Below are positions 1 through 61,549 of a DNA stretch of 64,000 nt, piece by piece; positions within the stretch are counted from its first letter, which is position 1; the number at the start of each line of letters is the position of its first letter. Both the position numbers and the translations under genes were made by a program. The notes below the pieces were generated by a model. The model made no database searches and was not told the DNA's origin. It saw nothing but the letters and a program-made list of their open reading frames with translations. This stretch comes from Halichondria panicea (lineage: Eukaryota; Porifera; Demospongiae; Suberitida; Halichondriidae): NCBI RefSeq assembly GCF_963675165.1, contig NC_087380.1:1541803-1605802 (forward strand), in the 5' to 3' direction.

Positions 1-1
1 C

Positions 2-3000
2 ACTGATGGACTTGCTGACAGCAGACCTATTAATACCATTGCTACCAACACTTGTGACAATGGCTACACTCTCACTGGAGGGGGTTTCAGACAATGTCAG
101 AATGATGGGACCTGGAGTGGAACAGCTCCAACCTGTTAAGGTGAGTTCCACTACATCTTAACAGTTGCTTGATACAGTGAACACAGGACCCACTGAACCA
201 CCCACCACCTGTCCTGACCTCACTGTATCAGCCAATGGAATGATCAGCTACAATATGGGGACTGCTAGTCTGAGACCAGTGGGCACTGTGGCCACCTTGA
301 CTTGTGACACTGGCTACACTCTCAATGGAGTCAGCACCAGGACTTGTGGGAGTGATGGAGGGTGGAGTGGGTTTGTTCCAATATGTCAGCGTACGTGGAA
401 TGGACTTTGTACTGTTTGTTTGTTGAGTGTATTGTCTCCCATACAGCTAACTGCCGTGACTTACCCTCACTGACCAATGGGATGATTATGTACAGTGCTG
501 GATCCACTAACAACAGACCTTTCCTCTCTAGTGTTGTGTACTCCTGCAACACTGGCTACACTCTCACTGGAGATACCTTTAGGTTGTTCTGTGTGACTGG
601 AGGGAGATGGAATGGGTTAGCTCCAATTTGTCAGCGTAACCGTAAGTGTCTGTACTGTTGAATGTATAATTTTCACTATTTCAGAGTTCCACTTCACCTT
701 TCTTGATACAGTAACCACTGAACCACCCACCACCTGTCCTGACCTCACTGTACCAACCAATGGAATGATCAGCTACAATATGGGGACTGTTAGTCTGAGA
801 CCAGTGAACACTGTGGCCACCTCCACCTGTGTCATTGGCTACACTCTCAGTGGAGGTACTTTAAGGGTCTGTGTGACTGGAGGAGTTTGGAGTGGGTCAT
901 ATCCAGTGTGTCAGCGTAAGTTGAATGGACTTTGTACTGTTGTGTAGCTAGATCTTACCATGGCTGGATCTACATGCATGTATACCATAATTATGAGACT
1001 AAAATGTTTTGCGAGCATCCAACATAAGCAAATTTTGAGAGCAGTATTTGTACAACAACACACCCTTGCCAGAACGTAATAGTTGGATCACAAAGTGTCA
1101 CATTTTCTTGATTTGTCTCATTCGCAATGGTTTTACACCAGCAAAATATTCTATAGTAATACGGTATTCGTTCCAGTTCAGTGTGTTTATTGTTGAGTTT
1201 ACCTGTATTGTCTCTCATACAGCTAACTGCCTTGACTTACCCTCACTGACCAATGGGATGATTATGTACAGTGCTGGATCCAGTAACGACAGACCTTTCA
1301 GCTCTAGTGCTACACACTCCTGCAACACTGGCTACACTCTCACTGGAGGTACCACCAGGGTCTGTGTGAGTGGAGGGAGATGGAATGGGTTAGCTCCAAC
1401 TTGTCAGCGTGAGTTCTGTAACTCTTGTACAGTTTGTGTTTGTGAGTTATAGGTACATAAACCCAAGGAAGATTGCATAGGTGGAATTGCTGTTGTAATA
1501 TTTATGTTCACTATTTCAGGACCTTGTTCTGATTTACCACCACTAATGAATGGAGACATTACCTACAGTGGTGGACTTGCTGACAGTAGACCCATTGCTT
1601 TCTTCGCTTGTGACAATGGCTACACTCTCACTGGAGGGAGTTTCAGAGCTTGTCAGAATGATGGGACCTGGGATGGAACTACTCCAACCTGTCAATGTGA
1701 GTTCCACTACATCTTAACAGTTGCTTCACCTTTTCTTGATACAGTGAACACAGGACCCACTGAACCACCCACCACCTGTCCTGACCTCACTGTACCAGCT
1801 AATGGAATGATCAGCTACAATATGGGGACTGCTAGTCTGAGACTAGTGGACACTGTGGTCACCTACACTTGTGACACTGGCTACACTCTCAATAGAGACA
1901 CCACCAGGATCTGTGTGAGTGGAGGGAGATGGAGTGGGTCACCTCCAACTTGTCAATGTGAGCTCTGTAACTCTTGTACAGTTGAGTATACGCATAAACC
2001 CGTTGAAAATAGCGTATAGATCAAAATGCTGCATGGTAGATATTATAGTTATGTTGATTCTCATACCCTAATACAGTGAACACAGGACCCACTGAACCAC
2101 CCACTACATGCCCTATACTGACTGCTCTGTCCAATGGAATGATCAGCTACAATATGGGGACAATACTAGTGGACACTGTGGCCACCTACACCTGTGACAC
2201 TGGCTACACTCTCAATGGAGGCAGCACCAGGACTTGTGGGAGTGATGGAGTGTGGAGTGGAACAACTCCTATTTGTCAAGGTAATGAGTACAAACTATAG
2301 TAATCATGGATTGATGGATTGTACTGCCCCCACAGCTACCTGTCCTGACCTCACTGTACCAGCCAATGGAGTGATCATCTACAGCTCTAGTACCTCACCA
2401 CACCCTCAGGGAACAGTGGCTACGCAGAGCTGCTTGAATGGATACGTACCCTGGACCACTACCAGCACTGCTACCAGAGTGTGTAGAGCTGGCAGATTGT
2501 GGAGTGGATCCTCTTTCACTTGTCAATGTAAACTAGTGCAATGAACTCTAACAGTGTTATAATCCCCCACCCCCACAGTACCTCCTGTCTACGTCTCCAT
2601 GGGAACCACCAACTATGCTGCTATGAACTCACAGGTTGCCATAGACACCATCGGAGATACCATTGAGACAGCATTGACTTGCAGAACTGACTCAACTATT
2701 TGCTGTACAGCACAAGATAATCCCAATAGTGCCAATGGATTAGGAGATTGGCTACTACCAAATGGAACAGCTGTCACTAGGAGACTGGACATTACTGAAT
2801 CAGACACTGATCTACTGTACAGTGTTGGAGATAGAGGTGCACTCAGACTCCATCGTCGAGGGTCTGTGTCAGGCCCCACTGGCTCCTACTGCTGTGTGAT
2901 TCCTGACAATACTGGAGTAGAAGTGGCATTCTGTGTGCAGTTAGGTGAGTGGGTCTGTGTTCATTCATTAATTATATAATTTATTGTTTCAGTGACTGGA

Positions 3001-3600
3001 GTCATCACTACCTCTCCTACTCCCGCTACAAGTAAGTGGCACCAATTATTGAGATGATCGCAGCATGTATTGTGTCTGAGTTGTCTCATGCATTCCATTA
3101 CAGCCTCTACTGATGAGAGCTCTCTCTGTCAGTGTGACAACACTGGTGCTGTGGTGGGAGGAGTAGTGGCCCTGGTAGCAATGGTGGTGATTGCAGTGAC
3201 TGTAGTGATGGTGACCTACCTAGTGCTCCGGCACAAGAGAGGAGGGATAATGTGAGTTGGTTTAAAGTGGTTTGTGTCATTAGTTTAAGTAGACACACTC
3301 TGTTGTGTGTAAACAAGCTTCATACGAACTAAACAAACTGAAAGCTTTTATTGTCATAATTACTACTAATAGTAATATATATCATCTGTTCTCTCCACAC
3401 ACAGGACTGTTCCTCGAGATATCACCCTTACTGACCAGGGTCAAAGTGCAGCCGCTACCTACGAGACCGTGTCTGCCACTTACGAGGAGATTCCAGCCTC
3501 CAGAGAGGTCAAAGGTGACTACAGCTACACACAGAACAATGCCTACTTGACTGTGAGTGGGCGTGAGGCTCCTGCTGTTGGAGGAATATACGATAACTGA
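2..3600 (+). CDS. CCP/Ig-like single-pass receptor with tyrosine tail, member A (5' partial)
   Basis: This is the 3' part of a receptor gene that begins before the window. Exons read as CCP domains at 2-140, 178-390, 447-635, 712-915, 1223-1408, 1520-1696, 1745-1957, 2077-2280 and 2336-2527. They are followed by an Ig-like domain at 2579-2944, a Thr-rich stalk at 2993-3031, the membrane exon at 3104-3251 and the tail at 3405-3600. The CCP introns are phase 1 with GT/AG ends. Each CCP shows the four cysteines, GYTL and WSG signatures. The Ig-like domain has a TC..CC doublet, GDWLLPNG and SYCCVIP. The membrane helix is VVGGVVALVAMVVIAVTVVM followed by RHKRGG. The tail contains YETV, YEEI, two Tyr in DYSYT, YLTV and a C-terminal IYDN. 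In the first visible CCP the usual Gln codon after the last Cys is TAA (137-139), so this copy may be inactive or may skip that exon. Family and topology are well supported; the ligand is unknown. Confidence 0.78.
994..1170. mobile_element. MITE, TACCGTATTAC family, inside an intron
   Basis: The intron between CCP exons 4 and 5 of member A carries an element ending in TAGTAATACGGTA. Its interior (CGCAA, GTTGGATC, TTGTCTCATTCGCAA) is the reverse complement of the copies at 14835, 31246, 47387 and 59121. The left end is degenerate (ACTAAAATGTTTTGCGAG). It is non-coding. Confidence 0.6.
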
Positions 3601-4095: not shown

Positions 4096-6792
4096 ATGGA
4101 GACTCAAGGTGTTCAGCTGCTGCTGCTGTTGTGTGCTGTGTCCACCTGCTGGGGACAAGGTAATGTAGTGATAAGCTAGGTATCCTGAGTGTGATATCTC
4201 AACTAGCTTAGTTTACTGATAGTGGTGATACCTATGAGCTCTGTCCAATTCCTTATAATCTATGGTCTAACCATTCATAGTCTACCTGACTCTGGGATCT
4301 GGTCCTAATATCACCACTGACAATACTGAGATCTTTATCACTGACATTGGAGAGGATGGTGGTCTCCCTTCTCTCACCTGTCACACTGACCTCACTACTT
4401 GCTGTAGAAGTGTTGCTGACAACAATGGTAATGGTAGACTAGGACAGTGGGTGTATCCTGATGGGAGTGTGGTACTGAGGAATGGTTCCTCATTGACTGT
4501 TGGACAGCAGTTCTACATTATAAGGAATGATGCTCAACTCATCAGACTGGCTCGTAGAGAGACTACCAACCCTCTCATTCCAACCGGGTCCTACTGTTGT
4601 ACTGTACCAACTAATGGAGGAGAGATTACCCTCTGTGCTAACCTGGGTGAGTGCAGGGGAGTAGGGAGTACGAGTATTGGAGCACCCCTCATCTCAAGCT
4701 ACCTTACCTAGTCGCTCCTTGAACAGCTAGCTTGCATTGGTGCCACAGCTAGTTACAGGGATATAGCTACAGTAGTTTACTTGAGGTAAAGACTCAAAGG
4801 TTAGAGGTCATGAAGCACATGCGGCGCATCATCTTTAATTACTCGCGTATACTGGAAAGTTTTATTACTACCAAATTTGCTCAGAATTAATCTCAGGGAA
4901 TGTAGAATGCCACATTTTTTTGACCCCCGTATTTGTCAGTATTCACCTAGTATTCAGCCACCTCCCTCAGCACCCACCTAGTATTTGTATGTGTTATCTT
5001 ATTCATGAGTTCATGAAACCATTACAACTCTTCTATGCAGTTCCATTGTATCATGCGCTTTCCATATCAATCCCTCTTGCAGTTTCTCCAATCCCATGTT
5101 CTGATAATCTCCCGACCATCTCTAATGGAGCCATAACCTATACTGCTGGATCCACTAATAACAGATCAGTGGGTGCTACAGCTACTTACATGTGGTGCTT
5201 TATAATCCCTACACTCTGGTTGGAATGTCAGTGAGGACTTGTGGGAGTGATGGAGAGTGGAGCTCATCACTAGCTCCAGTGTGTCAGCGTAAGGAATGAC
5301 TGAATGTGTACGTTGAGTGTATACCTATTCCTATAGTGATAACCTGCTCTGACCTACCCTCATTGACAAATGGGGACACTGACTATGGTGTTGCTGGATC
5401 CACTGACAGCAGACCAGTGGACACCGTGGCCACCTACACTTGTAACCCTGGCTTCACTCTCAATGGAGACACCACCAGGACTTGTGGGAGTGATGGAGTG
5501 TGGAGTGGGTTAGCTCCAACTTGTCAGCGTAAGATTTATACGGTTTGAATGTATGTTCACTATTCATTTTCAGGACCTTGTTCTGATTTATCACCACTAA
5601 TGAATGGAGTCATTACCTACACTGGTGGACTTGTTGACAGCAGACCTATTAATACTTTTGCTACCTTTACTTGTGACAATAGCTACACTCTCACTGGAGT
5701 GATTTTTAGGGTATTTTGTCAGAATGATGGTACCTGGAGTGGAACAACTCCAACCTGTCAATGTAAGCTAGTACAATAAACAGTCTAACAGAGTTACAAT
5801 CCCCCACCCCCACAGTACCTCCGATCTACGTTTCCATGGGAACCACCAACTATGATGTTATGAACTCACAGGTTGCCATAGACACCATTGGAGATACCAC
5901 TGAGACAGCATTGACTTGCAGAACTGACTAAACTATTTGCTGTACGGGACAAGATAATCCCAATAGTGCCAAGGGATTAGGATATTGGCTACTACCGAAT
6001 GGAACAGTTGTCACTAGGAGTCCAGACATTACTGATTCAGACACAGATCTACTGTACAGTGTTGGAGCACTCAGACTCCATCGTCGAGGGTCTGTGTCAG
6101 CCCCCACTGGCTCCTACAGCTGTGTGATTCCTGCTAGGAGTGGAGAGGTCACTTTCTGTGTGCAGTTAGGTAAGTGGTTTGTTCATTAATTTAATTATCC
6201 TGTTGTTTCAGTGACTGGAGTCATTACTACCTCTCCTCCCACTACAAGTAAGTGGCGCTATTTGAGCCGAGCACAGCGTGTATTGTGTTAGGTTGGTGCT
6301 ATAACAGCTTGTCGGTTGTCTCATATAGCCTCTACTGATGACAGCTGTTTCTGTCAGTTTGACAACACTGGTGCTGTGGTGGGAGGAGTGGTGGCCCTGG
6401 TAGCAGTGGTGGCTATAGTAACTGGTGTAGTGATGGTGACCTACCTAGTGCTCCGGTACAAGAGAGGAGGGAAAATGTGAGTTTGTTTGTGTGGTTTGTG
6501 TCATTAGTTAAGTAGACACAAGCTTCCTATGGACCAACTGAACAAACTGAAAGCTTTTATTATCATAATTACTACACCTGTTCTCTCCACACACAGGACT
6601 GTTCCTCGAGATATCTCCCTTACTGACCAGGGTCAAAGTGTAAAAACTACCTACGAGACCGTCCCTGCCACTTATGAAGAGATCCCAGCCTCCGAAAAGG
6701 TCAAAGGTGACTACAGCTACACACAGAACAATGCCTACTCGACTGTGAGTGGGCGTGAGGCTCCTGCTGTTGGAGGAATATACGATAACTGA
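4096..6792 (+). pseudogene. CCP/Ig-like receptor, member B, with disabling lesions
   Basis: The signal exon 4096-4159 encodes METQGVQLLLLLCAVSTCWG. It is followed by an N-terminal Ig-like exon (4281-4646, TCHTDLTTCC, GQWVYPDGS, GSYCCTVP), CCP exons 5093-5288, 5337-5528 and 5574-5762, the juxtamembrane Ig-like exon 5816-6169, stalk 6212-6247, membrane exon 6329-6476 and tail 6597-6792 with YETV, YEEI, YSTV and YDN. Two lesions stand out. The first CCP loses frame after ATATY (two small indels near 5190-5206, ending in TGA). The membrane-proximal Ig exon has TAA at 5929-5931 where the other copies have TCA. All splice sites still look usable, so decay is recent, or these exons are skipped in some transcripts. 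The layout with two Ig-like domains flanking the CCPs is also seen in the large mosaic gene further on. The introns at 4647-5092 and elsewhere hold only AT-rich sequence and a dispersed repeat near 4873-4985. Confidence 0.75.
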
Positions 6793-7368: not shown

Positions 7369-7828
7369 GTGTGCATGCAATGTAAGGTGTTCTGCTTCTG
7401 CTGCTGTTGCTGTTGTGTGCTGTGTCCACCTGCTGGGGACAAGGTAATCTATATATAAGTAGACATATTCTAGCAGTCAGTTCCATAGAGTTCCCGTCTG
7501 TGTGCTCCTGTTCAGTACCATAATCTCATAATTATGTTGTGAGTGTATACCTATTTCTCTACAGGTATATGTTTTGATCTAGCCACACTGACCAATCGGA
7601 TGATCTCCTACCAGCTGGAAAACATACCAGTAGCTACTGTGGCCACCTATACATCTGTACCACTGGCTTCACTCTCAATGGAGGCACCATGCACCAGGGC
7701 TTGTGGAAGTGATGGAATGTGGAATGGATCGGATCCAACTTGTCGGCGTAAGTGGAATGGACTGGTTTGTTGAGTGTATTGTCTCAGACTCTCATACAGC
7801 TAACTTTCTTGACCTACCCCCACTGATA

Positions 7829-8211
7829 GGCCCGTGTCAAATATTCACCTATTATTCAAATTTTTTATTCACACTGGATCCGCCTATTATTCAAATTGAT
7901 GACACCTATTATTCAAATCATTCAACATACACAGCAGCGAAATAAAACACCTATAAATTATATAGCACCAAAAAGTGGGATTAAGTCATTAATTTCAGCA
8001 GCGAAATAACAAACTTTAGCACACAAAACAAAATGTGGTTTCAACATTGATTTGACTAACATACTGCCATGTAAAATGTGGGCGTGTTTTGAGCTAATCG
8101 CATGTGCAACTCAATGAATATCATTAAACTATTTTCACAGTGCCTATTATTCAAATTTTAAAAAAGACTGCCTATTATAAAAAAATTATTCTGGAATATT
8201 TGGCACAGGCC
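7829..8211. mobile_element. MITE splitting a CCP exon
   Basis: A 383-bp non-coding insert with imperfect terminal inverted repeats: GGCCCGTGTCAAATATTC on the left and GAATATTTGGCACAGGCC on the right. CTATTATTCAAAT occurs four times inside. It interrupts the CCP reading frame at CTACCCCCACTGAT, and a similar CTACCCACTCACTGAT follows the right end. That suggests a target duplication of unusual length or a small rearrangement. Confidence 0.75.
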
Positions 8212-8797
8212 TACCCACTCACTGATCAACGGGATACAGTGCTGGATCCACTAACAACAGACCTTTCCTCTCTAGTGCTATGCACTCCTGCAACATTGGC
8301 TAATAGTATATAATCTCACTGGAACTAGATCTACTTTCAATGCAGGCACCAGGTTCTGTGTGAGTGGAGGAATCTGGGATCAACACCATTACAGCTGCAA
8401 CACTGGCTACATTCTCAATGGAGACAGTGGAATAGCTCACCTCCAACTTGTCAAGGTGAGGACAAAATTACACCCAGTTTCCTGTGGCCCCCCTCCCACT
8501 ATTACCAATGGATCTCCCGGACAACCAACCAGCACAATAATTGGAGGAGAGGCGACCTACACCTGTGACACTGGATTCAGTCTGCATGAGTTCTGCATGG
8601 CAACTGGAGGCTGAGCTGCTCACCGTCATTGTCAGAGTAAAGTCCCTCTCTAGTGTTGTCTCAAGTGTTGCCACGGCCACTATAGTAGTAGTTGGGCGGA
8701 TCTATGGGCGGATCTAGCAGAGCGTGTGTAGTATAAAGGATTCAAGATTCATTGTCCGACCTCCTCTGGCATTTATGTGGCTTTCATGCACACACTG

Positions 8798-25892: not shown

Positions 25893-26050
25893 AGCCTCTA
25901 CTCTCTCTATCTCTGCCAGTGTTACAGCCTCTACTCTCTCTCTGCCAGTGTGACAACACTGGTGCTGTGGTGGGAGGAGTGGTGGCCCTGGTAGCAATGT
26001 GGTGGTGATTGCAGTTGTATTGATGACGATAACTGAACTATACATTACTC
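25893..26050 (+). pseudogene. Fused membrane/tail relic of the receptor family
   Basis: After an acceptor-like ATTACAG, the sequence repeats GCCTCTACTCTCTC twice and then matches the family membrane exon (GACAACACTGGTGCTGTGGT, GTGGCCCTGGTAGCAATG). It jumps directly into the end of the tail exon (GACGATAACTGAACTAT). The intron and most of the tail are deleted. A degenerate family 3' block follows near 26106. Confidence 0.75.
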
Positions 26051-28014: not shown

Positions 28015-28101
<87 letters not shown>

Positions 28102-34100: not shown

Positions 34101-35240
34101 GGTAAAAATCCCATGTACCCTAGGTACATACTTGTGGCCAGCCTAAAGCCCACCCTCCACCCTTAAAGGGCTCTCTCCAGAGGAGGTTGGACACATATCA
34201 TCATGACGCCTTAATAATAATAATGTGATAATTATAAACCTTTATAGAATTCCTTTGAGGTCAAAGGTGAGAATGTAAAAGCTTATCAGTGCAAGTAAGA
34301 GCTAGAGAACGCTAAAGAGAAACAGATTAATGGTGCTCTGACCTCCTCTGCTCATATAGATCATAATCGGAATCCTGTTAAACAAAAATTGGAAAAGTGT
34401 CAAAAAAATCTAAATACTAGTCTAGATCCATCTTGGAATCTTTTCAGCAGTGTAGGGAAGGTGAGAGGGCGGTGGGAATGCTCCTAGATACTTTTGGCTA
34501 CTTGCAGTGTCTCTGTACAGCCTACAAAACAGTGGAGCATCGAGGTGCCTAATGGTGCCTAATCGGCCATTTTAATTAGATTCTTATGAGCGCACGTGAT
34601 AAAACCTAACGGTGATGACGCGCGTCCAACCTCCTCTGGGCTCTCTCTTTTATAGGACACTATACTGTGACACATTGGATCACATTGTGAAGATCAATTC
34701 TTCAGTATCCAATCAGATTCACTAAAACTACCGGACCCCATTGGAACTGGGGTGTTAAGTTGTAAATGTGGTTTGTCAAGTGCAAGCACACCCACACAAA
34801 TGTGCACACAAAATGTGCACAGTACATGCATGGCAGGGATCAAAGCAGTTGTAAATGGGTTGGACAACAGCTTCTAATTGCTTCTAATCAATATGTGTTC
34901 ATAGTACAAGCTATATACCTGTACCATGGATATCTGCGTGTGTATTGTTACAATAACAATACACACGCAGATATCCATGGTACAACTATTACATGTACAG
35001 CTATATATATATATATACTGCCGCCCACTCCACAGGCCCCTCCTCTCCTACCACGCCCATGTCACTGACTGTATCCATGGTGAACCATCAGTCGGCTAGC
35101 TTCGAGTGGGTGGTGATGACTGTTGCCTATGACAACGAGAGTTACATAGTGACATATGGCCTCGACTCTAATGACCTCAGCATCTTCAGTGCCACTCAAC
35201 CTGGCTCCAGTGACATCAGCCTCACCAATAGTGTAAGGCA

Positions 35241-35285
<45 letters not shown>

Positions 35286-42013: not shown

Positions 42014-45000
42014 ATGGAGACTCAAGGTATTCAGCTTCTGCTACTGTTGCTGTTGTGTACTGTGTCCACTTGCTGGGGAAAAAGAAAAGGTATATTGTAG
42101 ATGATAAGCCTATTTCTAGCAGCTAGTTCTATATTGTCAGTTTTTGTCAGTCAGTATAATTATTAAAAAACCAGTAGGTTTTACATAGGATTGGCAGTGT
42201 TCAAACTGTTCTATCTCTAGCCAAATCAATAAACTGGCTGGACAGATAGTTTATTTGGCCTTCACTCTGTGTGTATGTCTCAATTTATTATTCATGTATG
42301 AATGTTTTAAATTGCAATTCCAATCCGTTATAACGTCATGAACATGTGCAACTATAGTGTTGATACATTACATTGTAGCATCACAATTGACATTTAATAC
42401 TCTAGGAATAATTATTGAGGATATGTATAATTATACTGTGTTCCAGATCCATGCATGCATCTATATATACCATCAGCTTACATCTACCACATTATCATCC
42501 ATACGTGTCACTATGCATGGATGGACTGTGTATATATATGCAGGGCCGTAGATAGCTTAGGTTTGCAGGGGTGGCAAAATAACAGCTGAAAATTTTTACT
42601 AAAAAAAAGGTCAACTGTTATTTCATATCCTCTGAGTATGGCAACTTCCAACTTGCTGTGGCACCAACCTAGACCAACTAAAACAAGGTAGCTTGAGCTA
42701 GAAAGGTATACTCCTGCTTCCAGAGGCGCAGTGGAGCTCAGAATTTTACCTAAAAAAAGGTCATCACTCGTTCTCAACAGTCAGCATGTGCATCAGATAG
42801 CCCTGCCCACATCTCAATTTCAATAAAAGCATTGGGCATGTGCAGATCAGTAATTTTGGCAGATCTAGAATGCCAGGGGGGCAGTTGCCCCCCCTGCCCC
42901 CCCCCCCCCCACTGTCTACAGCCCTGATATGCCTGTGCTCAATACTGTGTTAGGGAACATCAAATCATTATGATTATGCCCGCAAATTCCAATGTAGGGA
43001 TCGGTCATCACCCCACCTAAAATTACCAGCGAAAAATTACATGTAAATGACGGATTGGAGTTATGCTCTTGTCTGATTTCTTGTTTTCACACTTTTTGGT
43101 GTATCCCCCGACCAATCATAGCATATTGCAAATGTTTATCTAATCGGATAGAGTTTACATTTCTCCTACTTTATATACACCTATCTCACACCCTACACAT
43201 GCATTGATCACAGAACCCACCACCTGCTCTGACTTACCCTCACTGACCAATGGGATGATTACGTACAGTGCTGGATCCCCTAACAACAGACCTGTCAGCT
43301 CTAGTGCTGTGCACTTATGTAACACTGGCTACACTCTCACTGGAGGGAGTTTCACTGAAGGTACCACCAGGGTCTGTGTGAGTGGAGGGAACTGGTATGG
43401 ATCACCTCCAACTTGTCATGGTGAGTTAACTCTTGTACAGTTTGTGTGTTTGTGAGTACAATAGTAAACACAATACAAAGACTGTGTGAATCAAATTTCG
43501 GGTTGTGTGATAAGTAAAGGTAGTTATGTTGAGAATCTCACACCCTAACACATTGACCACAGAACCCACTACCTGCCCTGACTTACCCCCACTAACCAAT
43601 GGGATGATTACGTACAGTGGTGGATCTACTAACAACAGACCTCTCGAATCTGGAGCTACACACAGCTGCAACACTGGCTACACTCTCACTGGAGGTACCA
43701 CCAGGACTTGTGGGAGTGATGGAATGTGGAGTGGGTTAGCTCCAATTTGTCAGCGTAAGTGGAATGGACTCTGTAGTGTTTATTTGTTGAGTGTATATCG
43801 TCTCCCATACAGCTAACTGCCCTGACTTACCTACACTGACCAATGGGATGATTATGTACAGTGCTGGATCCACTAACAACAGACCTTTCCTCTCTAACTC
43901 TGTGCACTCCTGCAACATTGGCTACACTCTCACTGGAGGTGCTTTCACTGTACTTACCACAAGAGTCTGTGTGAGTGGAGGAAACTGGGATGGGTCAGCT
44001 CCAACTTGTCAAGGTGAGTTATGAAACAGTTTGTGTACACCCAAGGAAGACTGTATAAATCACAAGTATTGAACATTATGGTTGTTGGAGCCTGGGTGAA
44101 ACACTCGTACACACTGGCACAAGTATTGTGATTTTTTACATACGTGGTAAACGAACATGGTGGTTGTTTGTGTTCTGTTGGAATTGAATGCTATTTCATA
44201 CTGTGTGTGCATGTGTGTGTGTGTACGTGTTCTGGTTGTAAGCTTGCAAAAACGACTATATTATATCCATACTTACCACAGGACCCACTACCTGCCCTGA
44301 CTTACCCCCACTTACCAATGGAATGATTACGTACAGTGGTGGATCTACTAACAACAGACCTCTCGAATCTGGAGCTACACACAGCTGCAACACTGGCTAC
44401 ACTCTCAATGGAGGTACTGTCACCAGGGTCTGTGTGAGTGGAGGGTGGAGTGGGTCAGCTATAACTTGTCAAGGTAAGTGGAACTGAATTTGTACAGTAT
44501 ATTGTTGAATGTGTGTTCACTGTAGCAGGAACTTGTTTTGATTTCCCACCACTAATGAATGGAGTCATTGCCTACACTGGTGGACTTACTGACATCAGAC
44601 CTATTAATACTTTCGCTACCTTCACTTGTGACAATGGCTACACTCTAACTGGAGAGGGTTTCAGAGTTTGTCAGAATGGTGGTACCTGGAGTGGAACAGC
44701 TCCAACCTGTCAAGGTGAGTTCCACTACATCTTAACAGTTGCTTTACCTTTCTTGATACAGTGAACACAGGACCCACTAAACCACCCACCACCTGTCCTG
44801 ACCTCACTGTACCAGCCAATGGAATGATCAGTTACAATATGGGGACTGCTAGTCTGAGAGCAGTAGAAACTGTGGCCACTTACACCTGTGGCACTGGATA
44901 CACTCTCAATGGAGGGAGCACCACCAGGACTTGTGGAAGTGATGGAGTGTGGAGTGGGTCAGCTCCAACATGTCAGCGTAAGTAAATGGACTTGTATTAA

Positions 45001-46617
45001 TTGTTTGTTGCATGAGTGTATCGACTCCTGTGCAGTGATACCCTGTTCTGACTTACCCCCTTTGACCAACGGGATGATCACCTATAGTGCTGGTGAATCC
45101 ACTGGCATCATACTAGTGGGCAGTACAGCTACTCACTCTTGTGGCAATAGCTACTTTCTGGTCGGAGAGGCAGTGAGGACTTGTGGGAATGATGGAAGGT
45201 GGAGTGAAACAGCTCCAGTGTGTCAGAAGCGTAAGAAGAATTGAATTTGTAGTATTTATTTGTTGAATGTGTGTTCACTGTTTCAGGAACTTGCTTTAAT
45301 TTACCACCACTAATGAATGGAGTCATTACCTACACTGATGGACTTGTTGACAGCAGACCTATTAACACCATTGCTACCTTCACTTGTGACAATGGCTACA
45401 CTCTCACTGGAGGGAGTTTCAGAGCTTGTCAGAATGATGGGACCTGGAGTGGGTCAGCTCCAACCTGTCAATGTAAGCTAGTAATAATAATACTGTATAG
45501 CGGATTTGTGCAAATTATGAACCGGCCAATAAAATTTATACAGCTCAGGATAGTTACATTGAACGTATTGCAGTAGAATAAATTCTTTTCGTATGATGCT
45601 CTACAATACCAAAATGTTCACCATACGTTAATAACCTGCTCTAACAGACTAACAATCCCCCACCCCCACAGTACCTCCTGTCTACGTCTCCATCACCAAC
45701 TATGCTGCTATGAACTCACAGGTTGCCATAGACACCATCGGATATACCACTGAGACAGCATTGACTTGCAGAACCGACTCAACTATTTGCTGTACAGGAC
45801 AAGATAATCCCAATAGTGCCAATGGATTAGGAGATTGGTTGTTTCCGAATGGAACAGCTGTCGTACGAACCCAGGACATTACTGATTCAGACACTGATCT
45901 ACTGTACAGTGTTGGAGATACAGGTGCACTCAGACTCCATCGTCGAGGGTCTGTGTCAGGCCCCACTGGCTCCTACTGCTGTGTGATTCCTGACAACACT
46001 GGAGTAGATGTGACATTCTGTGTGCAGTTAGGTAAGTGGGTCTGTGTTATGTTTCTTATCCATTGAATGATGTTGAGATGAGCGCAGCATGTATTGTGGT
46101 TCTTGTCATACATTCCATTACAGCCTCTACTGATGAGAGCTTTCTCTGTCAGAGTGACAACACTGGTGCTGTGGTGGGAGGAGTGGTGGCCCTGGTAGCA
46201 GTGATTGCAGTGACTGTAGTGATGGTGACCTACCTAGTGCTCCGGTACAAGAGAGGAGGGAAAATGTGAGTTTGCCACGGTTTAAAGTGGTTTTTGTAGA
46301 GTGTTGTTAGTTTAAGTAGACACACTTTGTTGTGTGTAAACAAGCTTCATATGAACTAAACAAACTGAAAGCTTTTATTGTCATAATCACTACTAATAGT
46401 AATATCATCTGTTCTCTCTACACACAGGACTGTTCCTCAAGATATCTCCCTTACTGAGCAGGGTCAAAGTTCAGCCGCTACCTACGAGATCGTCCCTGCC
46501 ACTTATGAGGAGATCCCAGCCTCCAGAGAGGTCAAAGGTGACTACAGCTACACACAGAACAATGCCTACTCGACTGTGAATGGACGGGAGGCTCCTGCTG
46601 CTGGAGGAATACAATAA
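42014..46617 (+). CDS. CCP8/Ig-like receptor with tyrosine tail, member F
   Basis: Leader 42014-42089 (METQGIQLLLLLLLCTVSTC). Eight CCPs: 43214-43420, 43563-43754, 43813-44013, 44282-44473, 44529-44714, 44762-44977, 45036-45230 and 45287-45472. Ig-like domain 45672-46031 (TCRTDSTICC, GDWLFPNGT, SYCCVIP). Membrane exon 46124-46265 and tail 46428-46617. I see no stop or frameshift with these splice sites, so this is one of the two best complete family members. The stalk exon found in other copies is missing and the Ig exon must splice straight to the membrane exon; the phases agree. The tail keeps YEIV, YEEI, YSYT and YSTV but ends GGIQ instead of GGIYDN because of a net 2-base loss. Transposons occupy the first intron, 42090-43213. 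Confidence 0.82.
42317..43147. mobile_element. Copy of the ATCCGTTA inverted-repeat element, split by another insert
   Basis: CCAATCCGTTATAACGTCATG at the left and GACGGATTGGAGTTATGCTC ... ATTGCAAATGTTTATCTAAT at the right match the inner inverted repeats of 23801-24329. The left arm is truncated. Confidence 0.5.
42541..42926. mobile_element. Element with CAGGGCCGTAGATAG ends and ATATG target duplication
   Basis: 386 bp from CAGGGCCGTAGATAG to CTGTCTACAGCCCTG, flanked by ATATG (42536-42540 and 42927-42931). Same class as 23583-24687. It sits within the leader intron of member F and interrupts the older element at 42317-43147. Confidence 0.75.
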
Positions 46618-46985: not shown

Positions 46986-48560
46986 ATGGCTCAAGGTGTT
47001 CAGCTTCTGCTGCTGTTGTTATTGTGTGCTGTGTACACCTGCTGGGGACAAGGTACTATTTTGTTGATAAGCTATTTCTAGCATTTAGTTCCTTTAGTCT
47101 GTTAGTGTATTAAATCCTGTTCCATTTTTATAATCTCTTGTACTTACACACCTATCTTACCACTGCTTTAGCCACATGCTCTGATAATCTCCCGGCCCTC
47201 ACCAATGGATCTGTAACCTATACTAATGGACAAGCTAACAATAGGCCAGTGGGTGCTACAGCTACTTACACCTGTATTGGTGGCTACACTCTGGTTGGAG
47301 TGTCAGTAAGAACCTGTGAGAGTGATGGAGAGTGGAGCTCAGTAGCAGCTCCAGTGTGTCAGCGTAAGGAATGACTGAATGTGTAGTACCGGGGCATATT
47401 ACTAGAATGTTTTGCTGGTGAAAAAAAACTTTTGCGAATGAGCCACATCAGCAGAAAAGTTGACCCTTTGCGATCTAACTATTGCGTTCTGACAAGGATC
47501 ATGTGCATTTACTAGGTTTTGCGGATTATTGTTGCGAAGTGATCAACCATCGCAAAGTTCACAAATGTTTGATACTCGCAAAACATTCTAGCAATACGGT
47601 AACGTGTACGTTGAGTGTACCTGATCCCATAGTGATAACCTGTTCTGACCTGCCCTCACTGACTAATGGGATCATCATCTATGGTGGTGCTGGATCCAAT
47701 AACAGCAGACCAGTAGACACTGTGGCCATCTATACTTGTGAGGCTGGCTACACTCTCACTGACGTCAGCACCAGGACTTGTGGGAGTGATGGAGTGTGGA
47801 ATGGGTTTGCTTCAAATTGTTGGCGTAAAAGTGGAATGGACTTTGTAATGTTTGTTTGTTGAGTGTATCGTCTCCCTAACATAGCTAACTGCCCTGACTT
47901 ACCCTCACTGGCCAATGGGATGATTATGTACAGTGCTGGATCCAGTAACGACAGACCTTTCAGCTCTAGTGCTGTGCACACGTGCAACACTGGCTACACT
48001 CTCACTGGATATACTCTCACTGAAGGTACCACCAGTAGAGTATGTGTGAGTAGAGGGAAATGGAGTCAGTCAACTCTAACTTGTGAAGGTGATCTCTGTA
48101 ACTCTTGTACAGTTTGTGTTTATACGCATAAACCCGAATTATTGTGTGAATCAAATGTTTGGTTGTGAAGTGAACGTAGTTATGCAGAGGTGTATAGGAT
48201 GTTTTTGTGTAGGGGTATATATATGTTGTGTGTGTGGAGCTGATCGACAGATCATGGAGTAGTTCAGCTCTTACTTGTCAATGTGCACAATGCTCTAATA
48301 ACAGACTTGAGTAAATAGAACATTCAGTGTGCAGGTATATAGATATGTCCATTTGCTCTGCTTATACTGTTGTCTGTGACTGAAGTTATCACTATACCTC
48401 TGCAAGTAAGGGAACTATTATATAGATTGTTAGGTACGTAGGTCCTTGTGGGTTGTCTCATGCATTCCATCACAGCCACTATACTGACGAGAGCTCTCTC
48501 TGTCAGAGTGACAACAATCATAGTGCTGTGGTGGGAGGAGTGGTGGCCCTGGTAGCAGTG
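46986..48560 (+). pseudogene. Truncated CCP receptor, member G
   Basis: Leader 46986-47052 (MAQGVQLLLLLLLCAVYTCW). CCPs 47172-47363, 47633-47824 (ending NCWR, not CQ) and 47885-48088 (weak donor GTGATC). Remnants follow: a CCP end near 48250, a stalk at about 48374-48404 and a membrane exon from 48476. The membrane exon diverges after VALVAV into QNLLFNTDNL and a stop. There is no Ig-like exon and no tail, so no membrane-anchored signalling receptor can be made. A short secreted CCP protein is conceivable. Confidence 0.72.
47387..47601. mobile_element. MITE, TACCGTATTAC family (best ends)
   Basis: Left end TACCGGGGCATATTACTAGA ATGTTTTGC; right end GCAAAACATTCTAGCAATAC GGTA. About 215 bp, in a CCP intron. 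The duplicated copy is at 59121-59334. Confidence 0.8.
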
Positions 48561-56631: not shown

Positions 56632-58350
56632 ATGGAGACTCAAGGTGTTCTGCTTCTGCTTCTTTTATTGTGTGCTGTGTCCACCTGCTGGGGACAGCAA
56701 GGTAATCCTGTGATAATGATTGTATTGGTGGTAGGTGCTATTCTGGGTGAGTAGATTGCACAAGTCACCATAATTATCATGCATGTGAATCTAAATGGTT
56801 AATAGATTGTGCTGTCTCCACAGCCACCTGTCCTGACCTCACTGTACCAGCCAATGGAGTGATTATCTACAGCTCTAGTACCTCACCACGCCCTCAGGGA
56901 ACACTGGCTACACAGAGCTGCTTGAATGGATACGTACCCTCCATTACCAGCACTGCTACCAGAGTGTGTCTATCTAACAGATTGTGGACTGGAACAGCTC
57001 TCACTTGTGAAGCGGGTAATTTTATTGAGTCTAAGCTAGTTTCGATGGTAGATAGATTGTACTGCCCCCCACAGCCATCTGTCCTGACCTTATTGTACCA
57101 ACCAATGGAGTGGTCATCTACAGTCCAGCTACCACCACCAGACTAGAGGGAACCATGGCTACACAGATCTGCTTGAATGGATACGTACCCTCCACTACTA
57201 GCACTGCTACCAGAGTGTGTAGAGCTGACAGATTGTGGAGTGGAGCAGCGGTCACTTGTCAATGTAAGCTAGTACAATGAACTCTAACAGACTTACAATC
57301 CCCCACCCCCACAGTACCTCCTGTCTACGTCTCCATGGGAACCACCAACTATGCTGTTATGAACTCACAGGTTGCCATAGACACCATCGGAGATACCACT
57401 GAGACAGCATTGACTTGCAGAACTGACTCAACTATTTGCTGTACAGGACAAGATAATCCCAATAGTCCCAATGGATTAGGAGATTGGCTACTACCGAATG
57501 GAACATCTGTCACAAGGAATCAGGACATTACTGATTCAGACACTGATCTACTGTACAGAAGTCGAGATACTGGTTCACTCAGACTCCATCGTCGAGGGTC
57601 TGTGTCAGGCCCCACTGGCTCCTACTGCTGTGTGATTCCTGACAATACTGGAGTAGATGTGACATTCTGTGTGCAGTTAGGTAAGTGGGTCTGTGTTCTG
57701 ATCCATTGATTATGCTATGTTTCAGTGACTGAAGTCATCACTACCTCTCCTCCCATTACAAGTAAGTCAGTGGTACTATTATTGAGATGAGCGCAGCATG
57801 TATTGTGTTAGGTACTAACAGCGTGTGGGTTGTCTCATACAATCCATTACAGCCTCTACTGCTGAGAGCTCTCTCTGTCAGTGTGACAACACTGGTGCTG
57901 TGGTGGGAGGAGTGGTGGCCCTGGTAGCAGTGATTGCAGTGACTGTAGTGATGGTGACCTACCTAGTGCTCCGATACAAGAGAGGAGGGAAATTGTGAGT
58001 TTACCATGGTTTAAAGTGGTTTGTGTAGAGTCAGTGTCATTAGTTTAAGTAGACACACTTTGTTGTGTGTAAACAAGCTTCATACAAACTAAACAAACTG
58101 AAAGCTTTTATTGTCATAATTACTACTAATAGAAATATCATCTGTTCTCTCTACACACAGGACTGTTCCTCAAGATATCTCCCTTACTGACCAGGGTCAA
58201 AGTGCAGCCGCTACCTACGAGATCGTCCCTGCCACTTATGAGGAGATCCCAGCCTCCAGAGAGGTCAAAGGTGACTACAGCTACACACAGAACAATGCCT
58301 ACTCGACTGTGAATGGACGGGAGGCTCCCGCTGCTGGAGGAATACAATAA
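56632..58350 (+). CDS. Compact CCP2/Ig-like receptor with tyrosine tail, member I (complete)
   Basis: The shortest intact family member. Leader 56632-56701 (METQGVLLLLLLLCAVSTCW). CCPs 56824-57015 and 57075-57263 (NGYVPS..STATRVC type). Ig-like domain 57315-57680 with TCRTDSTICC, GDWLLPNGTS and GSYCCVIP. Stalk 57726-57761, membrane exon 57853-57994 (helix, then YKRGGKL) and tail 58161-58350 with YEIV, YEEI, YSYT and YSTV, ending GGIQ. All splice sites are GT/AG and the frame is open from ATG to TAA. Unlike its relatives it lacks the conserved upstream box. The sequence before the ATG is a mobile repeat, so its promoter is probably different. It is expected at the plasma membrane; ligand and partners are unknown. 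Confidence 0.87.
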
Positions 58351-58657
58351 CTGAACTATCACACGATTTATTAAATGTCTCGTTTAGTTTGTATTTTTAC
58401 TTGATGCAGAGCATGTAGATATTATTAAGATATATATTATTATACGTACTTCATCAGCCCCTCTCCTTTTCACTGCGTTTTTCACCTCATGACGTTTAGT
58501 ACAACGTTATTTTACAGTTGATAAAAGCAAAAACACTATTTTTCCCTATCAAAAGTGCATGAATTATAATCATTCATGCACCCCTGGCCCTATACATTGT
58601 TGTATATATAACTGGTCTGAAAAGTCAGATATAAATCATCGACATCAGCACAGGCTT

Positions 58658-58690
58658 GTGGGTGGGTAAGTATCGTTAATAGAACAAAAC
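58658..58690 (+). promoter_or_regulatory. Family upstream box, member J
   Basis: GTGGGTGGGTAAGTATCGTT then AATAGAACAAAAC, 29 bp before the ATG at 58720. Confidence 0.55.
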
Positions 58691-58719
58691 TATGGTGAAG
58701 ACTTGGAGGTTGCATGCAA

Positions 58720-61549
58720 ATGGCTCAAGGTGTTCAGCTTCTGCTGCTGTTGTTATTGTGTGCTGTGTACACCTGCTGGGGACAAGGTACTATTTTGTTG
58801 ATAAGCTATTTCTAGCATTTAGTTCCTTTAGTCTGTTAGTGTATTAAATCCTGTTCCATTTTTATAATCTCTTGTACTTACACACCTATCTTACCATTGC
58901 TTTAGCCACATGCTCTGATAATCTCCCGGCCCTCACCAATGGATCTGTAACCTATACTAATGGACAAGCTAACAATAGACCAGTGGGTGCTACAGCTACT
59001 TACACCTGTATTGGTGGCTACACTCTGGTTGGAGTGTCAGTAAGAACCTGTGGGAGTGATGGAGAGTGGAGCTCAGTAACAGCTCCAGTGTGTCAGCGTA
59101 AGGAATGACTGAATGTGTAGTACCGGGGCGTATTACTAGAATGTTTTGCTGGTGAAAAAAAATTTTTGCGAATGAGCCACATCAGCAGAAAAGTTGACCC
59201 TTTGCGATCTAACTATTGCGTTCTGGCAAGAATCATGTGCATTTACTAGGTTTTGCGGATTATTGTTGCGAAGGATCAACCATCGCAAAGTTCGCAAATG
59301 TTTGATACTCGCAAAACATTCTAGTAATACGGTAACGTGTACGTTGAGTGTACCTGATCCCATAGTGATAACCTGTTCTGACCTGCCCTCACTGACTAAT
59401 GGGATCATCATCTATGGTGGTGCTGGATCCAATAACAGCAGACCAGTAGACACTGTGGCCATCTATACTTGTGAGGCTGGCTACACTCTCACTGACGTCA
59501 GCACCAGGACTTGTGGGAGTGATGGAGTGTGGAATGGGTTTGCTTCAAATTGTTGGCGTAAGTGGAATGGACTTTGTACTGTTTGTTTGTTGAGTGTATC
59601 GTCTCCCTAACATAGCTAACTGCCCTGACTTACCCTCACTGGCCAATGGGATGATTATGTACAGTGCTGGATCCAGTAACGACAGACCTTTCAGCTCTAG
59701 TGCTGTGCACACGTGCAACACTGGCTACACTCTCACTGGATATACTCTCACTGAAGGTACCACCAGTAGAGTATGTGTGAGTAGAGGGAAATGGAGTCAG
59801 TCAACTCTAACTTGTGAAGGTGGGCTCTGTAACTCTTGTACAGTTTATGTTTATACGCATTATTGAAGATTGTGTGAATCAAATGTTTGGTTGTGAAGTG
59901 AACGTAGTTATGCAGAGGTGTATAGGATGTTTTTGTGTAGGGTATATAATGTTGTGTGTGTGGAGTTGATCAACAGATCATGGAGTAGTTCAGCTCTTAC
60001 TTGTCAATGTGCACAATGCTCTAATAACAGACTTGAGTAAATAGAACATTCAGTGTGCAGGTATATAGATATGTCCATTTGCTCTGCTTATACTGTTGTC
60101 TGTGACTGAAGTTATCACTACCTCTACAAGTAAGGGAACTATTATATAGATTGTTAGGTACGTAGGTCCTTGTGGGTTGTCTCATGCATTCCATCACAGC
60201 CACTATACTGACGAGAGCTCTCTCTGTCAGAGTGACAACACTCATAGTGCTGTGGTGGGAGGAGTGGTGGCCCTGGTAGCAGTGCAGAATCTATTATTTA
60301 ATACTGATAATTTACACCAAATTTGCTAGAATTAATCTCAGGGAATGTAATTATTCGACTACCTTCCTCAGCACTCACTTAAAAAACCTTCCTACACCTC
60401 TGGAATATTATTATCATTGCGTTACTTCTGTATTTTAAAAATTTCAGCCATCTCACACCCTACACAGCGGACACAGAACCCACTGATCCTCCACCCATCA
60501 CCTGCACTGTACTGACTGCTCCGACCAATGGAATGATCGGCTACAATATGGGGACAAGATCAGTGGGCACTGTGGCCACCTACACCTGTGACACTGGCTA
60601 CACTGTCAATGGAGACACCACCAGGGCTTGTGGGAGTGATGGAGTGTGGAGTGGGTCAGCTCCAACATGTGAAGGTAATGAGTACAAGCTAGTGTGTTGA
60701 TGGTTGTGTTGTCTCCACAGCCACCTGTCCTGACCTCACTGTACCAGTCAATGGAGTGCTCTAGCACCTCACCACGCCCTCAGGGAACAGTGGCTACACA
60801 GAGCTGTACTGAGGGGTTCGGACTGTCTGGTGGGATAGAGAGAATGTATCAATTTGACAGAACGTGGAGTGGAGTGATCATCACCTGCCAACAATGTAAG
60901 TTGGTATGCTAGTCATTCCACCATCAGCTCCTGTATACGTCTCCATCCTTTTACTACATTATGCTGTGTTTCAATGACTGAAGTCATCACAGTCATCACT
61001 ACCTCTCCTCCCACTGCAAGTAAGTGGCACTATTATTGAGTTATTAGGACTAGATTGATACAAATTAGCAGCTTGCAATCCATTACAGCCTCTACTGATG
61101 AGAGCTGTCTCTGTCAGTGTCCCCAGAGTGACAGCACTGGTGCTGTGGTGGGAGGAGTGGTAGCCCTGGTAGCAGTGAGTGCAGTGACTGTAGTGATGGT
61201 GACCTACCTAGTGCTCCGGTACAAGAGAGGAGGGAAAATGTGAGTTTAAGTTGTTTGTGTACATTAGTTTAAGTAGACATATTTTGTTAAAAGCTTTTAT
61301 TCATAATTTCTACTAAGTATAATCTATGTTCTCTCTTGACACAGGAGTGTTCCTCATGTTCCTCGAGATATTCCCCTTACTGACCAGGGTCAAAGTGCAG
61401 CCGCTACCTACGAGACCGTCCCTGTCACTTATGAGGAGATCCCAGCCTCCAGAGAGGTCAAAGGTGACTACAGCTACACACAGAACAATGCCTACTCGAC
61501 TGTGAGTGGGCGTGAGGTCCCTGCTGCTGGAGGAATATATGATAACTGA
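58720..61549 (+). pseudogene. CCP receptor, member J, with deleted Ig exon
   Basis: Leader 58720-58786; CCPs 58906-59097, 59366-59557, 59616-59819 (weak donor GTGGGC), 60477-60674 and 60721-60895. A stalk and truncated membrane relic lie at about 60102-60280. The final CCP lost 11 bases after NGV, giving a frameshift and TAG. The Ig-like exon is deleted except for about 20 bases (CTCCTGTATACGTCTCCAT near 60930). The stalk acceptor has changed from CAG to CAA. The membrane exon (61089-61239) and tail (61345-61549, YETV, YEEI, YSYT, YSTV, IYDN) remain intact. The tail gained HVPR near its start through a short duplication. It has two membrane exons, only one of them complete. Probably non-functional. 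Confidence 0.75.
59121..59334. mobile_element. MITE, TACCGTATTAC family, duplicated with its host segment
   Basis: Same position and sequence as 47387-47601, so it was carried along by the segmental duplication and is not an independent insertion. Confidence 0.8.

Follow-up and report, generated by a model that had tools for sequence, protein, structure and literature searches.

The receptor genes in the window, a stretch of 64,000 nucleotides, probably encode paired receptors, in which a single ectodomain family is joined to opposing tyrosine signals and is likely to serve recognition. The window corresponds to positions 1.54–1.61 Mb of contig C4, which makes up 5.9% of the 131-Mb genome, and appears to belong to a ~2.5-Mb receptor complex that occupies one end of this contig. 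What could be described as one receptor family is read as a paired-receptor complex because receptor tyrosine phosphatases (RPTPs) carry the same ectodomain and loci with the Ig-like CC domain (IgC) have other tyrosine tails. At the sequence level, the two signalling ends, a tyrosine docking tail and a phosphatase, are predicted to oppose each other.

Six loci of the window (A–F) encode phosphotyrosine-type tails. Six full tail exons (domain matches starting at 3388, 6580, 40872, 46411, 58144 and 61340) and six full transmembrane (TM) exons were identified, along with three TM fragments at 25943, 48501 and 60225. The tails are 85–90% identical to the first one, and the TM exons 81–93%; searching the whole genome for the tail gave the copies of the window E-values of ≤7.3e-33, except that of C (2.7e-28), far beyond chance. 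Open copies of the IgC are located at 2566, 4277, 39270, 45659 and 57302, while the copy at 5803–6171 is interrupted by a stop, and a weak relative is located at 28137. The earlier note counted at least eight loci sharing all parts; this number falls to six with a tail, of which only four (A, C, D and E) combine it with an intact membrane-proximal IgC and membrane helix, B being frame-broken, F lacking the IgC and the remaining copies being relics. Open reading frames and splice sites were seen in genes A, D and E and, for gene C, in its 3′ part. A leader of the METQGV..LLLLCAVSTCWGQ type is present at 4096 (B), ~7380 (relic) and 56632 (E), and its MAQGVQ form at 46986 (relic) and 58720 (F); no leader of gene D was found in the scanned stretch 42300–43230. 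One CCP of gene C matched PF00084 (4.2e-11), and the other CCPs of the window were recognised by a local profile. Support for an Ig fold of the IgC is weak: two AF2 predictions had low confidence, and Foldseek returned no match with E <0.001, its best-ranked hits including bacterial surface domains as well as Ig chains.

Table 1. Receptor genes and relics of the window (window coordinates).
Feature	Position	Strand	Remarks
Gene A, nine CCP exons	5..2527	+	First exon begins before the window
Gene A, leader-like stretch	Just upstream of the window		L070
Gene A, IgC exon	2579..2944	+	Acceptor CCCCCACAG directly before, donor GTGAGT directly after the exon
Gene A, membrane exon	3104..3251	+	
Gene A, tail exon to stop	3405..3600	+	YETV, YEEI, YSYT, YLTV, YDN
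Gene B	4096..6792	+	Disrupted
Gene B, 5′ parts	4096; 4277-4648; 5097-5758		Leader; N-terminal IgC; CCPs, first CCP split over two frames
Gene B, 3′ parts	5803-6171; 6352; 6597-6792		IgC with in-frame TAA; TM; tail
Relic	7380..8587	+	Leader-like stretch, degenerate CCP pieces
Relic membrane-exon fragment	25943..25999	+	
Gene C	27343..41075	+	Candidate leader at 27343, different from the METQGV type
Gene C, Ig-like and FN3 exons	~28.1-38.0 kb	+	Putatively members of the same gene
Gene C, 3′ parts	38575-39212; 39277-39588; 39652-39787; 40889-41075	+	CCPs; IgC; TM; tail
Gene D	43214..46617	+	Eight CCP exons
Gene D, 3′ parts	45672-46031; 46124-46265; 46428-46617	+	IgC; TM; tail
Relic D2	46986..48560	+	Leader, three CCPs, TM fragment; without tail
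Gene E	56632..58350	+	Complete; after splicing one open frame between Met and stop codon; introns of GT-AG type
Gene E, 5′ parts	56632-56701; 56824-57015; 57075-57263		Leader; CCP; CCP
Gene E, 3′ parts	57315-57680; 57853-57994; 58161-58350		IgC; TM; tail
Gene F	58720..61549	+	Leader; CCPs 58911-59815; TM fragment 60225-60284
Gene F, 3′ parts	60503-60888; 61118-61239; ~61345-61549		CCPs; TM; tail; without IgC

The variability of the ectodomains described previously was confirmed, with two CCPs in E, an N-terminal IgC and three CCPs in B, five CCPs in F, eight in D, nine in A, and Ig, FN3 and three CCPs in C. The dead copies are likewise real and comprise B, the relic at 7.4–8.6 kb, the isolated piece of a TM exon at 25943, and D2, the last of which lies in a 2.7-kb duplication (46073–48750 versus 57782–60474, 96.8% identity). 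The extent assigned to the family (1–61549) is fair overall, except that ~10.3–20.9 kb resembles a different gene. This segment is apparently a separate gene with a CCP array and a secretin-family 7TM domain.

The genome contains 43 matches to the window-type tail (tail 1), the last of them (E 0.6) at chance level, and 39 are on C4; together with the decayed copies they bear out the pattern of constant signalling ends, variable ectodomains and many copies, and within this genome a single conserved housekeeping gene is ruled out. Two IgC searches gave at least 183 separate matches on C4, some of them fragmentary, at least 169 of which are below 2.7 Mb (for clustering and linkage counts, C4 matches ≤330 bp apart on one strand were merged). 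Among the IgC matches listed, a same-strand IgC is found ≤3 kb upstream of 37 of the 39 tail-1 matches on C4, of 14 of the 15 tail-2 matches in the 0.96–1.01 Mb group (a far tail-2 match at C4:3.81 Mb being omitted) and of 24 of the 35 RPTP I-sets on C4, and no opposite-strand IgC lies within this distance upstream for any of these three classes. Full linkage of tail 3 to the IgC was rejected, because just 8 of its 47 C4 matches have an IgC ≤3 kb upstream among those listed. Since 11 of the 35 RPTP I-sets likewise lack a close upstream IgC among the matches listed, some receptors of the complex may carry different ectodomains, or IgCs beyond these matches. The first same-strand effector ≤8 kb downstream of 142 C4 IgCs was tail 1 in 36 cases and a PTP piece in at least 37, leaving at most 69 with neither, an upper bound since one IgC list and the PTP matches listed were used. 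An opposite-strand effector followed none of the 142 IgCs, and a neighbour's tail was located ≤2.5 kb upstream of 12. The IgC loci L076, L077 and L080, read downstream, lead to other TM segments and tyrosine tails. Thus the tail-1 and RPTP classes are clustered in one complex, and the receptor classes mostly occupy separate blocks along C4. A tunicate origin of these fester-like genes was rejected, as a nuclear fragment of mitochondrial cox1 in this genome reads YYWFGKITGYSYNEVYGKIHFW, a sequence of the non-bilaterian type; a sponge is the likely source, in line with the size of the genome and its chromosome-like contigs.

At ~0.33–0.48 Mb of C4 the same CCP and IgC ectodomain is joined to RPTPs. 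In the locus L058/L074, read in one gene, the TM is followed by a PTP domain (PF00102, 1.5e-28) with the active site HCSAGVGRTG (HCX5R). The RPTP loci carry a Cys-less I-set (Pfam 2.5e-13), for which 42 matches were found: 37 at ≥74% identity, 35 on C4 and eight at 100%. Tail-1 and RPTP loci share 85–94% DNA identity in blocks covering the IgC, and the adjacent CCPs match too. When rows of the IgC tree were compared (tail 1, 12 of 17; RPTP, 10 of 12), identity between the classes equalled that within them up to the IgC donor and for ~60 nt more, and then dropped, ending within ~80 nt after the IgC exon. In this tree, built from 29 of 150 scored rows picked as high-identity copies with known downstream class, the RPTP-linked IgCs do not form one clade (AU p 1.4e-47), and there are five class-label changes, at least two of which are forced by starred branches. 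The labels are nevertheless more clustered than in shuffles (five changes versus a mean of 9.6), suggesting that ectodomain exchange between the classes is not free. The TM exons of both classes share an NTGxVVxGVV start (0.60 nucleotide identity over 50 nt), which may reflect an old relationship between the classes, followed by exchange of their ectodomains. Receptor tyrosine kinases were considered as a further class and rejected, because the one locus read (L081) has no CCP match and a marginal IgC match (E 0.011, small set).

Tail 1 in the window has the motif order YETV-YEEI-YSYT-YSTV. Four of its five tyrosine columns are invariant in 30 copies and the fifth is kept in 29 (permutation p 0.011), as is YEEI. 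The canonical ITAM (YxxI/L-x6-12-YxxI/L) and the hemITAM are absent from all 30 copies, while an ITIM-like motif, [ILVS]xYxx[ILV], occurs in three and is absent in 27, and an ITSM-like one occurs in three. An identity as ITAM/ITIM receptors was therefore rejected, and the choice of an SH2 protein reading the tail is a guess. Domain arrangements matching this scheme are present in the same genome, with SH2-SH2-PTP on C3, SH2-SH2-kinase on C9 and SH2-kinase on C2.

The tail is under constraint, with a dN/dS of 0.52 (0.34–0.81; 30 of the 43 matches). Point estimates were 0.42–0.80 in all module sets except the RPTP TM, whose 29 nearly invariant codons gave 1.36 (0.38–2.62); the intervals of the RPTP IgC (to 1.28), tail-1 TM (to 1.36) and I-set (to 1.97; 9 of 10 RPTP loci fitting the pattern) also cross 1. 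The sets comprised 15 tail-1 and 10 RPTP rows for the IgC, the divergent L066, L068, L067 and L061 being left out, 20 and 10 for the TM, and 13 and 11 for the last CCP. The term fast-evolving used earlier is thus not supported in the sense of positive selection. Diversifying selection, not being shown by these values, was rejected as the source of variety; shuffling and exchange of exons, together with duplication, seem to account for it instead. dS is low in the IgC, TM and tail (0.07–0.11) versus 0.53–0.55 in the last CCP; as the rows compared there may belong to CCP types that are not orthologous, this high value means old or shuffled rather than a rate.

In the proposed mechanism, the related ectodomains, which consist of CCP repeats and a putative membrane-proximal V-like Ig domain, sometimes with a second one at the N-terminus, are attached to alternative signalling ends. 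The conserved tyrosines of the short tails would be phosphorylated by a Src-type kinase and read by SH2 proteins, and the RPTPs, which in the 0.33–0.48 Mb group combine the intracellular I-set, a catalytic PTP and a second PTP-like stretch, would erase phosphotyrosine. Upon surface contact, the balance of tail-bearing and phosphatase-bearing receptors on the same or similar ligands may determine the response, which would most likely serve to recognise self and non-self or microbes. Novel specificities would arise through gain, loss and exchange of ectodomain exons, with the signalling exons nearly constant. Tail phosphorylation, the opposing output and the recognition role are inferred from these features, and the immune or allorecognition function is likewise presumptive.

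It seems unlikely that these are instead adhesion or tissue-patterning receptors acting in cell sorting, contact inhibition or development, with the tails as cell-type-specific readouts. Adhesion and guidance systems classically draw on CCP, Ig and FN3 ectodomains and on RPTPs, and dN/dS does not show positive selection, but more than 150 clustered IgC matches, dead copies, a duplication as recent as that containing D2 and ectodomain exchange would be unusual for developmental receptors. Still less probable is a mostly neutral tandem expansion, in which the cassette would have spread within a recombination-prone region by duplication and gene conversion, and tail and phosphatase genes would share ectodomains as a by-product, with no paired signalling. 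The many window relics agree with such an origin, and conversion could leave the difference in dS noted above; the open frames and splice sites, the conserved tail tyrosines, the intact PTP active site and the constrained tail argue against it.

The classes might also signal independently through microbe- or symbiont-specific ectodomains, each ligand meeting one class, which would make them related and not functionally paired. Their mostly separate blocks on C4, the wide variation in CCP number and the paucity of IgCs near tail 3 among the matches listed are consistent with this explanation, to which we give a low probability, since the IgCs of tail-1 and RPTP loci are as similar between as within classes and the neighbouring CCPs match.

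The paired-receptor interpretation has a precedent in the vertebrate KIR, LILR/PIR and SIRP receptors, which are clustered, have near-identical ectodomains and opposing signals, and undergo inter-class conversion. In these the ITIM partner recruits a phosphatase, whereas the partner described here is itself a tyrosine phosphatase; unlike in vertebrate paired receptors, the tail-1 TM lacks a charged adaptor-pairing residue. In animal RPTPs (R2A/R2B, CD45), too, a catalytic PTP and then a second PTP-like stretch come after the TM, but the present ones differ in their CCP and IgC ectodomain and in the Cys-less intracellular I-set between the membrane and the PTP. It is possible, as a tentative proposal, that a non-bilaterian, probably a sponge, possesses a chromosome-scale complex of paired recognition receptors numbering ~100 or more. 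Inhibition would fall to an RPTP with the ectodomain of its tyrosine-tailed partner, and the classes would exchange ectodomains; such a complex would be analogous to the leukocyte receptor complex but of independent origin, and would be a candidate sponge self/non-self locus. If true, paired-receptor logic would not be confined to bilaterians, and here the receptor itself would contain the phosphatase. Sponges are classical allorecognition models, and this dense clustered family with predicted opposing tyrosine signals provides a concrete locus for grafts, populations and single-cell data. No description of a CCP and IgC receptor family with tails and RPTPs was found in searches of the open-licence PMC literature.

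A 2025 review calls invertebrate allorecognition mechanisms ‘a complete mystery’, sponges, cnidarians and ascidians having no candidate proteins in common (PMC12065747). In the sponge Geodia cydonium, a receptor with an Ig-like domain (Schaecke et al. 1994, cited in PMC12018476) likewise couples its Ig-like ectodomain with tyrosine signalling; it is, however, a kinase, and the C4 kinase locus read (L081) shares no clear ectodomain with the CCP and IgC family. The Hydractinia Alr family, with 41 genes in the allorecognition complex, is similarly a large clustered IgSF family of a non-bilaterian with V-like Ig domains, but V-set and I-set domains are described in the accessible text (PMC11999971) rather than the CCP-based ectodomains and RPTP class found here; ITAM/ITIM motifs of candidate Alr allorecognition genes are cited in PMC12065747. 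According to the 2025 review, the fuhc locus of Botryllus schlosseri encodes the fester family and fester co-receptors (FcoR; 53 loci), which resemble the present genes as clustered type I receptors whose ectodomains combine Ig and sushi (CCP) domains and whose cytoplasmic parts have tyrosine motifs, among them core YxxI/L/V; an activating/inhibitory balance was proposed for these receptors, and uncle fester resembles a duplicate of fester exons 6–11 with an unrelated 5′ half (PMC12065747). Membership in the FcoR family was rejected, since its architecture of one V-type Ig, one sushi and two C2 Ig domains is unmatched by 2–9 CCPs with a distinct CC-type IgC, and the hemITAM is missing from all 30 tails. 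Canonical ITIM/hemITAM motifs, and SH2 domains in many loci, are described for FcoR, (PMC12065747), in contrast to the mostly non-ITIM/ITAM tails of the present genes. Unlike FcoR, the present family includes phosphatases with the same ectodomain, whereas CD45-like RPTPs appear in the available part of PMC12065747 as separate expressed signalling proteins.

The window lies at C4:1541803-1605802 in a genome of 131.5 Mb, C4 being the contig that holds it. A local HMM scan in six frames recovered full-length tail and membrane exons, six of each, together with about 50 sushi (CCP) matches and the membrane-proximal Ig-like CC domain (IgC), of which five copies are open and one is interrupted by an in-frame stop; every listed module match is on the + strand. 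The scan thus bears out the receptor anatomy described in the earlier note, and the eight loci proposed there come down to six full tail exons. Phase 1-1 and GT-AG sites fit the CCP exons. Gene E is complete, its Met, signal peptide (METQGVLLLLLLLCAVSTCWGQQ), two CCPs, IgC, membrane helix, tail and stop forming one open spliced frame; frames are also open in genes D and A, from the first exons placed, and in the 3' part of gene C. A 2.7-kb duplication of 96.8% identity (46073-48750 versus 57782-60474) holds the end of gene D and the relic behind it.

Window receptors, the phosphatase architecture and further tails
Feature	Location or locus	Strand	Modules or motifs	Basis
Gene A		+	9 CCP	local HMM scan
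Gene B		+	N-terminal IgC, 3 CCP, broken	local HMM scan
Gene C		+	Ig, FN3, 3 CCP	local HMM scan
Gene D		+	8 CCP	local HMM scan
Gene E		+	2 CCP	local HMM scan
Gene F		+	5 CCP, without IgC	local HMM scan
Relics	window ~7.4-8.6 kb, 25.9 kb, 47-48.6 kb	+		local HMM scan
Receptor tyrosine phosphatase (RPTP)	C4:331-482 kb (L058 + L074)		cysteine-free I-set between membrane helix and PTP domain	
Tail 2	L076		YEAP, YEDV, YAPT	
Tail 3	L077		YEEL, YEVV, YQLS, YAPT	
Tail 4	L080		YEEI	

Inside the cluster, 10313-20865 is probably a separate gene for a CCP-bearing adhesion-type GPCR, in which a CCP exon array, with ~0.8 kb internal repeats 98% identical at 12262-14628, is followed by a secretin-family 7TM match (PF00002, 2.6e-15, 19080-19358). 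A 93% identical repeat pair (51746-52424 and 62058-62709), with no sign of receptor modules, is possibly a mobile element.

The short phosphotyrosine-type tail of the window genes (tail 1) gave 43 matches genome-wide in the tail query search, the weakest at chance level; 39 are on C4, grouped at 0.27-0.32, 1.10-1.145, 1.54-1.67 and 2.92 Mb with a few outliers. C4 also accounts for 142 of the best 150 of 301 candidates for the IgC query and 137 of the best 150 of 280 for a second, distant one. Merged, the two lists give at least 183 separate C4 matches, some of them fragments, at least 169 lying below 2.7 Mb. Among the best 150 of 4112 candidates in the CCP search, CCP-dense clusters were also seen at C9:5.62-5.68 Mb, C2:6.45-6.48 Mb, C15:3.86 Mb and C1:11.15 Mb.

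The gene E query matches thirteen membrane-proximal IgC copies at C4 0.33-0.48 Mb with 60-91% identity (10 of them 85-91%). At the six loci read there, both the membrane exon that follows IgC and the cytoplasmic part differ from those of the tail-1 genes: a proline-rich stretch precedes an Ig I-set domain that lacks both core cysteines (Ig_3 2.5e-13, I-set 2.3e-11). In L058/L074, the only gene followed further, the I-set leads into a receptor tyrosine phosphatase D1 domain (HCSAGVGRTG; PF00102, 1.5e-28) and then a second PTP-like stretch. We know of no other animal with a cysteine-free I-set placed between membrane helix and PTP domain. The I-set query gave 42 matches, 37 of them at least 74% identical (35 on C4, two on C1) and eight at 100%. 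PF00102 has at least 54 matches spanning the catalytic part on C4, at least 49 below 2.7 Mb, with IgC linkage seen for only some.

Among the matches listed, the first same-strand effector within 8 kb downstream of the 142 C4 IgCs is tail 1 in 36 cases, a PTP piece in 37 and neither in 69; the opposite-strand control gave 0 of 142, and a neighbour's tail lies within 2.5 kb upstream in 12. Five small regions were read downstream of IgCs without an assigned effector. In three of them (L076, L077 and L080) a membrane helix and tyrosine tail of another kind follow; the other two, L078 and L079, continue into further ectodomain, as does L075. Matches to tail 2 number 18 (16 on C4, 15 of these at 0.96-1.01 Mb); those to tail 3 number 51 (47 on C4), and some of the tail-3 matches are fragments of a single exon. 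The two look related in sequence, sharing YE[DE][VL]SKL and C[PA]AYAPT.

Seen from the effector side, 37 of 39 tail-1, 14 of 15 tail-2 and 24 of 35 I-set matches have an IgC of the merged list no more than 3 kb upstream on their own strand; none of these classes, nor tail 3, has a listed IgC there on the opposite strand. Because of these counts, tails 1 and 2 and most I-set phosphatases are part of IgC receptors. Gene F is one of the two tail-1 exceptions. Membership is not supported for most tail-3 genes, only 8 of 47 having a listed upstream IgC, and the pairing of tail 1 with RPTPs is unaffected, since it does not depend on tail 3. At C4:0.54-0.79 Mb, 27 tail-3 matches without a listed IgC within 3 kb upstream lie among RPTP I-set matches; these genes may join the same kind of tail to an ectodomain of a different type.

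Four tail-1 loci (A, D, E and L044) were compared with five RPTP loci by BLASTN, 20 pairs in all. The block that contains IgC shows 85-94% identity, often extends over adjoining CCP exons and introns, and stops 3-78 nt beyond the IgC donor. When 12 tail-1 loci are aligned with 10 RPTP loci, the two classes match at 0.86-0.98 over the IgC exon (0.62-0.84 in its last 40 nt), close to within-class identity throughout the exon and for the first ~60 nt of the intron. Between-class identity then sinks to 0.08-0.30 by 85-185 nt, recovers to 0.60 where the membrane exon begins, because both classes open with NTGxVVxGVV, and drops once more to 0.13-0.38; within-class identity beyond the junction is mostly 0.7-1.0. 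Given this common start, ectodomain exchange between classes of old common descent would be as likely as a recent swap. In a tree of 29 IgC exons (17 tail-1, 12 RPTP), the RPTP IgCs do not form one clade (five label changes, at least two forced by starred branches; AU p 1.4e-47), which indicates that the same IgC lineages came to stand on both classes more than once. The labels are nevertheless more clustered than in shuffles (five changes versus a mean of ~9.6; 1 to 2 of 500 as low).

Mean dS is 0.53-0.55 for the CCP adjoining IgC, 0.08-0.11 for IgC, 0.07 for the tail-1 membrane exon, 0.11 for tail 1, 0.013 for the RPTP I-set and 0.007 for the RPTP membrane exon; the signalling ends are young or homogenised, and the ectodomains older or shuffled. 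The dN/dS values do not demonstrate positive selection in tail 1 (0.52, 0.34-0.81), IgC of the two classes (0.53, 0.35-0.78; 0.80, 0.53-1.28), the tail-1 membrane exon (0.67), CCP (0.65-0.66), I-set (0.42) or the nearly invariant RPTP membrane exon (1.36, 0.38-2.62). Across 30 tails, conservation is higher in the tyrosine columns than in the others (four of five invariant, the fifth in 29; p 0.011). YEEI, a Src-family SH2 ligand, is retained in 29, an ITIM occurs in three, and no canonical ITAM or hemITAM was found.

Possible partners are encoded, judged by adjacency of matches rather than gene models: SH2 beside a kinase in Src-type order (C2, 7.25 Mb), SH2-SH2-kinase in Syk-type order (C9, 5.255-5.259 Mb) and SH2-SH2-PTP in SHP-type order (C3, 8.404-8.406 Mb). 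Tandem kinase-domain clusters lie at C10:1.70-1.94 Mb, C15:4.00-4.03 Mb and C4:2.52-2.76 Mb; many C10 and C15 kinases are within one open frame of ~560-640 aa, and L081, the one locus read in the C4 cluster, has an ectodomain different from IgC receptors. Dozens of kinase-like matches (PF07714, ~126-132 bits) are spread over 2 Mb at C1:15.5-17.4 Mb. C1 also bears a short cox1-like nuclear fragment (L069, C1:5279027-5282218), in which TGA stands twice for Trp under the mitochondrial code; we take it to be of non-bilaterian type. Along with the genome size and the chromosome-scale contigs, this fragment is in keeping with a sponge and speaks against a tunicate.

The best-supported reading is a paired-receptor complex, in which members of one ectodomain family would be coupled to predicted tyrosine docking tails in some receptors and to tyrosine phosphatases in others, and contact would thereby shift the phosphotyrosine balance. 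The family may instead serve adhesion and development or unpaired pattern recognition, or may have expanded neutrally. For such a paired complex, the likeliest use would be to recognise self, kin or microbes, given the copy number, clustering, decay and exchange seen in the family.

A search of the open-licence PMC literature found no description of the C4 family. The Hydractinia complex holds 41 Alr genes (PMC11999971). The nearest in design is Botryllus fester/FcoR, with Ig and sushi domains, ITIM, hemITAM and YxxI/L/V tails, and a polymorphic locus (PMC12065747). Unlike these two systems, as far as the cited portions of both papers describe them, the C4 family also carries its ectodomain on a phosphatase.
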